Positions 1 to 55,872 of a DNA stretch of 64,000 nt are shown here, one piece after another; the stretch's first letter is position 1, and the number at the start of each line of letters is the position of its first letter. This DNA is from Haliovirga abyssi (GTDB lineage Bacteria; Fusobacteriota; Fusobacteriia; Fusobacteriales; Haliovirgaceae). The DNA lies in contig NZ_AP027059.1 in NCBI RefSeq assembly GCF_030295325.1, forward strand, positions 806,001 to 870,000, written 5' to 3'. Made by a program: the position numbers and the translations under genes. The notes beneath the pieces are model-generated. The model was not told where the DNA came from and ran no database searches. It saw only the letters and a list, made by a program, of their open reading frames with translations.

Positions 1-32
1 ATAACAAACTTATTTTTTAAATGTTATTTAGG
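1..32 (+). repeat. Partial copy (right end) of the intergenic inverted-repeat element family
   Basis: The first bases match the right-hand end of elements found elsewhere in this window. AACTTATTTTTTAAA followed by TGTTATTTAGG corresponds to AACTTATTTTTTAAA plus CGTTACTTAGG in the reverse complement of the copy at 51320-51370. The left half lies outside the window. It sits directly upstream of fliQ, and its last bases overlap the fliQ ribosome binding site. The tail of the preceding gene (fliP would be expected) cannot be identified here. Confidence 0.6.
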
Positions 33-9547: not shown

Positions 9548-10024
9548 ATGAAAGATGTGTTAGAGGAGAAAGAAAATAATATTGATAAAATAATATTACA
9601 AATAATTGGATTTACATTAAATGGAGAAGAGTACGCTTTAGAGATAAAAAATGTAGAAAGTATAATAAAAGTTATAAAAATGACAAGAGTTCCAAGAGCT
9701 GAAAAATATATAATTGGAGTAATAAATTTAAGAGGTATTGTTATGCCAATAATAGATCTAAATAAGAAATTTAATTTAAATTCTAAGATTGAAAAATCTG
9801 ATAGTCAAAGAATTATTATATTGAAAATTGATACAATATCTTTAGGAATTTTAGTGGATGGAGTTTCTGAAGTAATAGATTTAAAACAGAAAGAACTTAA
9901 TTCAAATCCAACAATATCTTCTGCAATAAGCTCTGAATATATAAAAGGGGTTTGTAAGTTAGAAGAAGGAGATAGACTTTTAACTTTGTTAAGTATAGAA
10001 AAAATTCTAGATTTGAAAAGCTAA
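9548..10024 (+). CDS. cheW: Chemotaxis coupling protein CheW (flagellar cluster)
   Basis: CheW bridges chemoreceptors and CheA. The 158-residue product is one CheW domain with the recognisable core GEEYALEIKNVESIIKV near residue 30 and YIIGVINLRGIVMPIIDL near 60. A GGAGGTG lies eight bases before the ATG and cheA ends 12 bases upstream, so it belongs to the same operon. It is one of three separate cheW genes in the window (see 30231 and 32627), presumably serving different arrays. Confidence 0.95.
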   Translation: MKDVLEEKENNIDKIILQIIGFTLNGEEYALEIKNVESIIKVIKMTRVPRAEKYIIGVINLRGIVMPIIDLNKKFNLNSKIEKSDSQRIIILKIDTISLGILVDGVSEVIDLKQKELNSNPTISSAISSEYIKGVCKLEEGDRLLTLLSIEKILDLKS

Positions 10025-10112
10025 AGAACGTTTAAAAAGTTAGATACATTAGCTATAAAGATATTTAAATTTATTGTGTATTTAAAAATAGAAATATAAT
10101 TTTTAAGTTATT
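10022..10112 (-). repeat. Copy of the intergenic inverted-repeat element (reverse orientation)
   Basis: The left end reads AGAACGTTTAAAAAGTTAG (from 10025). This is the reverse complement of the family right end AACTT...TTTAAACGTTCT, with a few A/T bases missing. The other end, ATAATTTTTAAG at 10096-10107, matches the copy near 51351. It sits between cheW and cheC and includes the cheW stop codon. The inner part is A/T-only and diverged. The remaining bases to cheC (10113-10178) hold only the cheC ribosome binding site. Confidence 0.5.
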
Positions 10113-32487: not shown

Positions 32488-32592
32488 TTAGGAACGGCTT
32501 AAAAATAACCTTCCGATTTTGTTTTAAAATACGCAATGGTTTAAGCGTTTTTATAACAAAAAATGAGAAACTTATTTTTTAAACGTTCCTTA
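32488..32592. repeat. Full-length copy of the intergenic inverted-repeat element
   Basis: AGGAACGGCTTAAAAATAA at 32490-32508 is mirrored by the end at 32572-32590 (TTATTTTTTAAACGTTCCT). The pairing continues inward to ACGC/GCGT around a ten-base loop at 32535-32544, giving a 45-bp imperfect hairpin. TTA flanks the GGAACG/CGTTCC ends on both sides and could be a target duplication. It lies between the second cheA and the third cheW. Other copies are at 1, 10022, 51320 and 55815. Confidence 0.8.
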
Positions 32593-51319: not shown

Positions 51320-51370
51320 TCCTAAGTAACGTTTAAAAAATAAGTTTTTCATAATTTTTAAGCCTTACTG
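51320..51370 (-). repeat. Short copy of the intergenic inverted-repeat element (reverse orientation)
   Basis: AGTAACGTTTAAAAAAT at 51325 and ATTTTTAAGCCTTACT ending at 51369 are imperfect inverted repeats. The reverse complement contains the family signatures GGCTTAAAAAT and AACTTATTTTTTAAACGTT. It lies in the transcribed leader before the fructokinase gene and could fold into a hairpin in that mRNA. Confidence 0.7.
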
Positions 51371-54503: not shown

Positions 54504-55817
54504 ATGAATAAAAAAGCAATGGTAATAACGTATGGATGCCAGATGAATGTTAATGATAGTGCCAAAATAAAAGCTCAATTAACAAAACAAGGATATGAAA
54601 TAACAGAAAACTTAAAAGATAGTGATTTAGTATTTATAAATACATGTACAGTAAGAGAAGGAGCTTCAAAAAAAGTATATGGTAAATTAGGAGAACTAAA
54701 AACTTTAAAAAAAACTAAAAAGGATATGATTGTTGGAGTAACTGGGTGTCTTGCACAAGAAAAAAAAGATGAAATTTTGAAAAGAGCACCTCATGTAAAT
54801 CTTGTACTAGGGAATCAAAATATATATCAAATTCCAGAATATCTTAGTAAATTAGAAAATGATGAAATAAAACATGTTGTATTAGTAGATAATGAAGATG
54901 AATTACCACCAAGATTAGATGCAGATTTTGATTCTAATTTTTCAGGTTGTGTTTCTATAACATATGGTTGCGATAATTTTTGTACTTATTGTATAGTTCC
55001 GTATGTGAGAGGAAGAGAAAGAAGTGTACCTGTTAAAGATATAATTACTGATATAAATAATCTTTTGAAAAAAGGGTATAAAGAGATAATTTTATTAGGG
55101 CAAAATGTAAACTCATATGGAAAAGGGTTAACAAATGGTGAAAATTTCGCAAAATTATTAAAAGAAATATCTAAAATAGAAGGGAAATTTAGACTTAGAT
55201 TTATGTCGCCACATCCAAAAGATTTTACAGATGATGTAATAGAATCAATAATAGCAGATGAAAGAATTAGCAGAAATATTCATCTTCCGCTTCAAGCAGG
55301 CTCAACTTCTGTTCTGAAAAAAATGAATAGAGGGTACACAAAAGAAGATTATTTGAAATTAGTTGAAAAATTAAGAAGTAAAATAAAAAATATTGCATTA
55401 ACAACAGATATTATTGTAGGATTTCCATATGAAACTGAAGAAGATTTTAAAGATACTTTAGATGTTGTTGAAAAAGCAAGATATGAAAACGCATATATGT
55501 TTATGTATTCTAAAAGGGATGAAACTCCAGCGGCTACTATGGAAAAGCAAGTTAGTGAAGCAGAAAAAAAAGATAGATTACAAAGATTAATAGAAGTTCA
55601 AACTAGGATTACTAAAGAGGAAAGTAATAAATATTTAAATAAAGAAATAGAAATTTTAGTAGAAGGGTTGTCACCTAGAAATAAAGAGATGTATATTGGG
55701 AGAACTGATAGTAATAAAGTTGTAATATTTAAGGGTGATGAAACTCTTATAGGAAAATTTGCAACAGTTAAGATAAATGAAGCAAATACATGGACTCTTT
55801 ATGGAGAGTTAATATAG
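54504..55817 (+). CDS. miaB: tRNA-2-methylthio-N6-dimethylallyladenosine synthase MiaB
   Basis: MiaB is a radical-SAM enzyme that adds the methylthio group to ms2i6A37 of tRNAs reading U-starting codons. The 437-residue product has the N-terminal cluster cysteines (TYGCQMNVND, FINTCTVRE, GVTGCLAQE). The radical SAM CxxxCxxC is CDNFCTYC (about 153-160), with YVRGRERS after it. A C-terminal TRAM domain ends the protein. Its stop codon is the first triplet of the inverted-repeat element at 55815. It has its own promoter. Confidence 0.96.
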   Translation: MNKKAMVITYGCQMNVNDSAKIKAQLTKQGYEITENLKDSDLVFINTCTVREGASKKVYGKLGELKTLKKTKKDMIVGVTGCLAQEKKDEILKRAPHVNLVLGNQNIYQIPEYLSKLENDEIKHVVLVDNEDELPPRLDADFDSNFSGCVSITYGCDNFCTYCIVPYVRGRERSVPVKDIITDINNLLKKGYKEIILLGQNVNSYGKGLTNGENFAKLLKEISKIEGKFRLRFMSPHPKDFTDDVIESIIADERISRNIHLPLQAGSTSVLKKMNRGYTKEDYLKLVEKLRSKIKNIALTTDIIVGFPYETEEDFKDTLDVVEKARYENAYMFMYSKRDETPAATMEKQVSEAEKKDRLQRLIEVQTRITKEESNKYLNKEIEILVEGLSPRNKEMYIGRTDSNKVVIFKGDETLIGKFATVKINEANTWTLYGELI

Positions 55818-55872
55818 GAATGGCTTAAAATGAATAGATATAAAAAATTTATTTTTCAAACGTTCTATAGGA
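55815..55872 (+). repeat. Copy of the intergenic inverted-repeat element
   Basis: TAGGAATGGCTTAAAATGAAT from 55815 is imperfectly mirrored by ATTTATTTTTCAAACGTTCTA ending at 55868. Both ends match the element at 32488-32592. It lies between miaB, whose stop it contains, and the GH13 gene. Confidence 0.7.

Follow-up and report, generated by a model that had tools for sequence, protein, structure and literature searches.

A dispersed, very probably non-autonomous MITE family with 3-bp target duplications in the genome of Haliovirga abyssi

Tourist-like, PIF-Harbinger and IS5-type elements have G-rich ends and insert at TWA/TTA targets. Canonical Harbinger duplications are 3 bp long (PMC12730594). 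Among bacterial elements, Correia/NEMIS of Neisseria is an A+T-rich hairpin of ~107 bp, with a ~155-bp class that carries ~50 bp of extra internal sequence, and its transcripts are proposed substrates of RNase III (PMC2229807). RUP of Streptococcus pneumoniae is 107 bp long, is present in ~108 copies, and carries stop codons in all frames (PMC2229807). Chunjie of Geobacter and QMITE1/2 of Coxiella are variable in size and have conserved ends and duplications; QMITE2 lies mainly in 3′ untranslated regions (PMC10969869).

We analyzed a stretch of 64,000 nucleotides (the window; C1:806001-870000) from the H. abyssi genome, which comprises 2.73 Mb in two contigs (C1 and C2). The family described here is new within a familiar class of selfish DNA, and Correia and RUP come closest to it in size, copy number, and habit (PMC2229807, PMC10969869). 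It shares with Correia/NEMIS a copy number above 100, a mostly non-coding location, and duplications on insertion, and its 99-bp and ~146-bp classes parallel the 107-bp and 155-bp classes of that family; however, Correia has TA-type termini (PMC2229807) whereas the duplications here are 3 bp, and the two sequences are unrelated as far as searches show. The resemblance to RUP likewise covers size, copy number, and stop codons; RUP, however, has ends in common with IS630-Spn1 and a TA target, whereas the searches here revealed no IS that has the ends of this family. Chunjie and QMITE1/2, compared by description rather than by sequence, are longer.

Copies in the window and in the genome

The element at 32491..32589 (+ strand) is a near-complete but imperfect palindrome of 99 bp with left end GGAACGGCTTAAAAATAAC, right end TTATTTTTTAAACGTTCC, arms of ~45 nt, and a loop of ~10 nt. 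It is flanked by a TTA target-site duplication at 32488..32490 and 32590..32592. An earlier reading of the sequence alone had described a 45-bp hairpin flanked by TTA at this site; the flanks were as described, but the size was too small. The same reading had grouped this copy with four others in the window, and end matches and a model match showed that all four are members of one family. Positions 1..27 (+ strand) hold the right end of a 109-bp copy whose left part precedes the window; the whole copy (C1:805919-806027) has TTA on both flanks, the right one being window positions 28-30. A decayed full-length copy lies at 10025..10112 (- strand) with target TAA at 10022-10024, and the interval 10022-10112 matched model positions 6-104 (19.7 bits, E 1.9e-7, 231 bases searched). 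The short copy of ~43 bp at 51326..51368 (- strand) has a right end that matches the 20-mer exactly, a degenerate left end, and mismatched flanks (TAA vs TGA). A 50-bp copy at 55817..55866 (+ strand) has an ATA duplication at 55814-55816 and 55867-55869. When up to three mismatches were allowed, the window contained four occurrences of the right-end 20-mer, vs 0.16 expected.

A DNA search of the genome revealed ~40 further places with 88-97% identity (40 scored among 275 candidates), the window element at 32491..32589 reaching 97% identity with copies elsewhere. A model based on sequence only and built from 32 copies gave 182 genome matches at E≤1. At least 130 copies are present genome-wide: in stretches taken around these matches, 133 copies at 129 loci were delimited by both ends. 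The family is real and far larger than the five copies first described. Both orientations are common, and copies are found on the chromosome and on the second replicon.

Copy length ranged from 35 to 201 bp and was mostly 99 bp; no protein is encoded. The 133 copies fell into bins of 35-64 bp (n=10), 95-104 bp (n=89), ~115-165 bp (n=21), and 195-204 bp (n=13), and the recurring lengths were 35-54, 99, ~146, ~152, and 199-201 bp. The ~146-bp class has ~47 bp of extra sequence in the center. Every length class has the same two distinguishable ends, GGAAYGGCTTAAAAATAA and GGAACGTTTAAAAAATAA; these inverted ends, ~18-20 bp each, are all that copies of different lengths have in common. Read inward, positions 7-10 are GCTT at the left end vs TTTA at the right end; this difference was consistent in nearly all length classes, and the element therefore has polarity. 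Copies of 35, 41, and 43 bp (C1:1636665-1636699, C1:1857758-1857798, and C1:718914-718956) have matching 3-bp duplications and are hardly more than two ends placed back to back.

Target-site duplications and nested copies

In a set of 33 copies located without regard to their flanks, 31 had identical 3-bp flanks: TTA (14), TAA (12), AAA (2), TGA, TAT, and CTA (1 each). Flanks matched in 108 of the 133 copies of the larger set, vs 38 expected by permutation (maximum 54 in 2000 permutations); because delimitation of this set gave matching flanks some preference, 31/33 is the cleaner figure. The 108 matched duplications consisted of TTA/TAA (82), ATA/TAT (15), AAA/TTT (4), TGA/TCA (3), CTA/TAG (2), and CAA/TTG (2). 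The predominance of the first two pairs, which are of 3-bp TWA type, is, along with the G-rich ends, a point of resemblance to Tourist-like, PIF-Harbinger, and IS5 elements; unlike in IS5/Harbinger, however, no such transposase domain was detected in the genome, and the family was for that reason not filed under PIF/Harbinger or IS5. Letter-identical 99-bp copies occurred in groups of two to four at unrelated sites, and 25 of 70 copies had a neighbor at 0-1 differences. Where copies lie in tandem (e.g., C1:346791-347107 and C1:1553511-1553710), one target triplet is common to both members.

Thirteen copies of 199-201 bp are composites whose loop holds a second, somewhat diverged element, always at the same loop TTA. 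Uninterrupted elements have GGTTTAAGCG, or a sequence close to it, at this site; the composites read GGTTTA-[97-99 bp]-TTAAGCG. TTA flanks the inner element on both sides in 12 of the 13, and deletion of the insert plus one TTA restores an element of 98-99 bp. These junctions fix the duplication at 3 bp, and nested and uninterrupted copies are a natural pair of filled and empty sites inside one genome. A separate inner insertion in each composite was considered and is disfavored: the inner element has the same orientation in 13/13, and inner-type left ends outside the listed composites were found only twice (among 93-103-bp copies), one of these apparently being a composite remnant. We therefore read the nesting as one old event. 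The composite then spread as a unit, since 12 of the 13 have their own matching outer duplications. The outer arms match different 99-bp subfamilies, from which we infer exchange between copies, and the 147-152-bp forms without the 47-bp insert look like deletions between repeated arms.

The elements are short and protein-less, with terminal inverted repeats, a fixed 3-bp duplication, and dispersed, mostly intergenic copies; these are the general features of bacterial MITEs. The suggestion of a miniature mobile element, one of two made by the sequence-only reading, is thus strongly supported by the duplications, the identical dispersed copies, and the nested insertion with its empty site. We conclude with high confidence that this is a non-autonomous MITE family with 3-bp TWA-type duplications that spread through one genome.

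Hairpin structure and position relative to genes

The other suggestion was a dispersed RNA hairpin with a regulatory role. Such an element, or one that takes part in mRNA processing (a terminator or an RNase III site), would be kept for its function and have spread only secondarily. The predicted fold is stable: -27.4 kcal/mol for the + strand and -31.8 kcal/mol for the - strand of the window element, vs ~-13 kcal/mol for shuffles (z -4.7 and -6.1), as such a hairpin would have. Changes on both sides were found in 8 of 31 modelled pairs, and paired sites changed less than unpaired sites (8.5% vs 21%). Pair 30/68 has T-A, G-C, and C-G forms and stays intact in all 63 distinct sequences. Compensatory changes between the arms were present above both types of control: covariation totalled 35 cells, vs 5.3 for shuffled and 3-14 for slid controls, although relatedness of the copies inflates such counts. 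However, DNA-level copying of one arm onto the other explains the covariation as well as RNA selection does. G-U and A-C departures look about equally frequent outside the two end pairs; no strand is therefore favored, which speaks against an RNA role.

Gene context was drawn from 568 kb around the copies with ORF calls made in this analysis. In this sampled DNA, ~84% of which is coding, 128 of 129 loci were intergenic. Gene 3′ ends lay within 10 nt of a copy or inside it in 42 of 130 cases, and gene 5′ ends in 8 of 126. Of 88 nearby upstream genes, 28 terminate at the duplication or in the first 33 nt of the element; their stop codons fall on the TAA duplication, on the TAG formed by TTA and the first G of the element, or on stops at end positions 10-12, 9-11, and 16-18. 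Two cases lie in the window: the CheW-domain gene at 9548-10024 has as its stop the target TAA of the decayed copy, and the gene at 54504-55817 has a TAG completed by the first G of the 50-bp copy. The observation that copies lie outside genes or begin in a stop codon holds for nearly all loci of the family. The neighbors of the window copies encode a FliR-type export protein, CheC, CheA, CheW, a PfkB kinase, and a glycosidase. The chemotaxis, flagellar, and sugar-metabolism neighbors pointed out in the sequence-only reading are therefore real, but the association is not meaningful, because the window is a flagellar/chemotaxis region; genome-wide placement is generic.

The many copies directly after stop codons speak for a transcript-processing hairpin, as does the bias in head-to-tail gene pairs, where 73 copies lie along the gene direction and 41 opposite to it (p 0.0035). 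On the other side, both orientations are common, the size of the structure varies from 35 to 201 bp, no Rfam match was found in the window, no terminator-like T-tract is present in or around the window copy, and an RNA role gives no reason to expect exact 3-bp duplications. We consider an RNA element kept for its function unlikely. A regulatory role of the hairpin has no direct support, and is neither shown nor needed to explain the family.

A second possibility is a foldback element in which arm complementarity is itself maintained, the hairpin being the substrate of an unrecognized enzyme, or replication of the palindrome copying arm onto arm. The compensatory changes are consistent with this. 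So are the 43-bp and 35-bp copies, in which the arms match at positions 7-10, as though sequence had been transferred from one arm to the other. A point against the MITE reading is that arm complementarity in older copies exceeds the prediction of plain decay; purely neutral fossils would not have to behave in this way. An element that maintains its complementarity by either route is unlikely; if it does occur, the smallest copies would be near the lower size limit of mobile elements.

Under the MITE reading, copies would persist where they are harmless, between genes and at stop codons. Their persistence at stop codons would be explained by insertion that duplicates TAA, or by TTA plus the first G giving TAG; both ends hold further in-frame stops within 18 bp.

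Candidate transposases and distribution of the family

The genome had no match to PF01609, PF13359, PF13586, PF13612, or PF07592; an IS5-type DDE transposase sharing the MITE ends was thus not found by PF01609, PF13359, or PF13586. PF13358 gave a match at chance level only. PF00665 revealed an IS3-family IS (8 copies), an IS with a 479-aa rve transposase (3 copies), and a single disrupted rve gene. Both intact rve-domain ISs were rejected as autonomous partners, their ends being different from the MITE ends. In the sampled stretches, all left/right end pairs with a spacing of at most 3.2 kb were listed, and for none of them was a transposase demonstrated in between; the long pairs inspected turned out to be independent short elements or isolated decayed ends. 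The family is thus an orphan, which counts against the MITE reading; the source of its transposase may have disappeared, may reside elsewhere, or may belong to a family other than those searched.

The IS3-family IS (equal-scoring matches with the same 454-aa open frame, e.g., at C1:1187069 and C2:104083) encodes a 447-aa transposase (NF033516) and has ends TGTACCC...GGGTACA. The 479-aa rve transposase, which was below every NCBIfam cut-off, is encoded at C1:1120138, 2010919, and 2046808 between ends GGTAGTGTCAAA...TTTGACACTACC. The genome also contains a second dispersed repeat with a ~145-bp unit (TTAGGAAAGTATAAATTTATTCAGAAAATAAGCTACGCC...CTACCAGATGAAGCGTAGCTTATTTTTTTA) in at least 40 copies of 87-99% identity, e.g., C1:870373-870462 just past the end of the window. 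It has two interleaved inverted pairs in a pseudoknot-like order, no Rfam match, and some tandem copies at 144-146 bp. On C1 it lies on the + strand below ~1.13 Mb and on the - strand above, with one exception (2016808); its orientation therefore seems to follow the replichore. Several copies of the IS3-family IS lie at the same point of this repeat, between ..CAGAT and GAAGCG.., which suggests targeted insertion. A piece of the repeat is also found in the center of a 133-bp MITE copy (C1:2335448-2335580).

The ends, duplications, and nesting, as read from the DNA, are features of cut-and-paste transposition in trans by a putative enzyme. The enzyme would be a DDE-type transposase acting in trans, encoded by an element that has since disappeared or belonging to a type missed by the searches; it would cut at GGAACG-type ends and join them to 3-bp staggered TWA targets. 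The sequences themselves show that insertion at a TTA/TAA-type target leaves the 3-bp duplication and that one copy entered the loop TTA of another; the resulting composite is present at 13 sites. A MITE of IS630/Tc1-mariner type, with a TA target and misread ends, is very unlikely. TA lies within most duplications, as in Correia and RUP elements; however, its position relative to the ends varies (TTA, TAA, ATA) with all three bases matching, AAA, TGA, and CAA duplications exist where a 2-bp TA duplication would be expected, nested copies show gain of TTA, and PF13358 had no significant match. REP/REPIN-like palindromes moved by a Y1 HUH transposase would also be palindromic, intergenic, and numerous near gene 3′ ends, but Y1 enzymes are not known to produce a target duplication, and 3-bp duplications with paired inverted ends of defined left and right are cut-and-paste features, so this origin is hardly credible.

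A search of 59 genomes of the order, all from other genera and families, gave no match to the sequence model, and there was no match in phages or plasmids. The exact left end gave 12 isolated matches in 84,980 species genomes, with no element around any of them; in viral contigs it gave 11 single matches, and the exact right end gave none. The MITE family is apparently new and specific to this genome.

Literature searches gave no described MITE for this genome, and the elements form a clean, well-populated bacterial MITE family. Its history can be read from identical copies of recent origin, from recombinant length forms, and from a nested composite at 13 sites. The family illustrates the survival of such elements in a compact genome through insertion between genes and replacement of stop codons.
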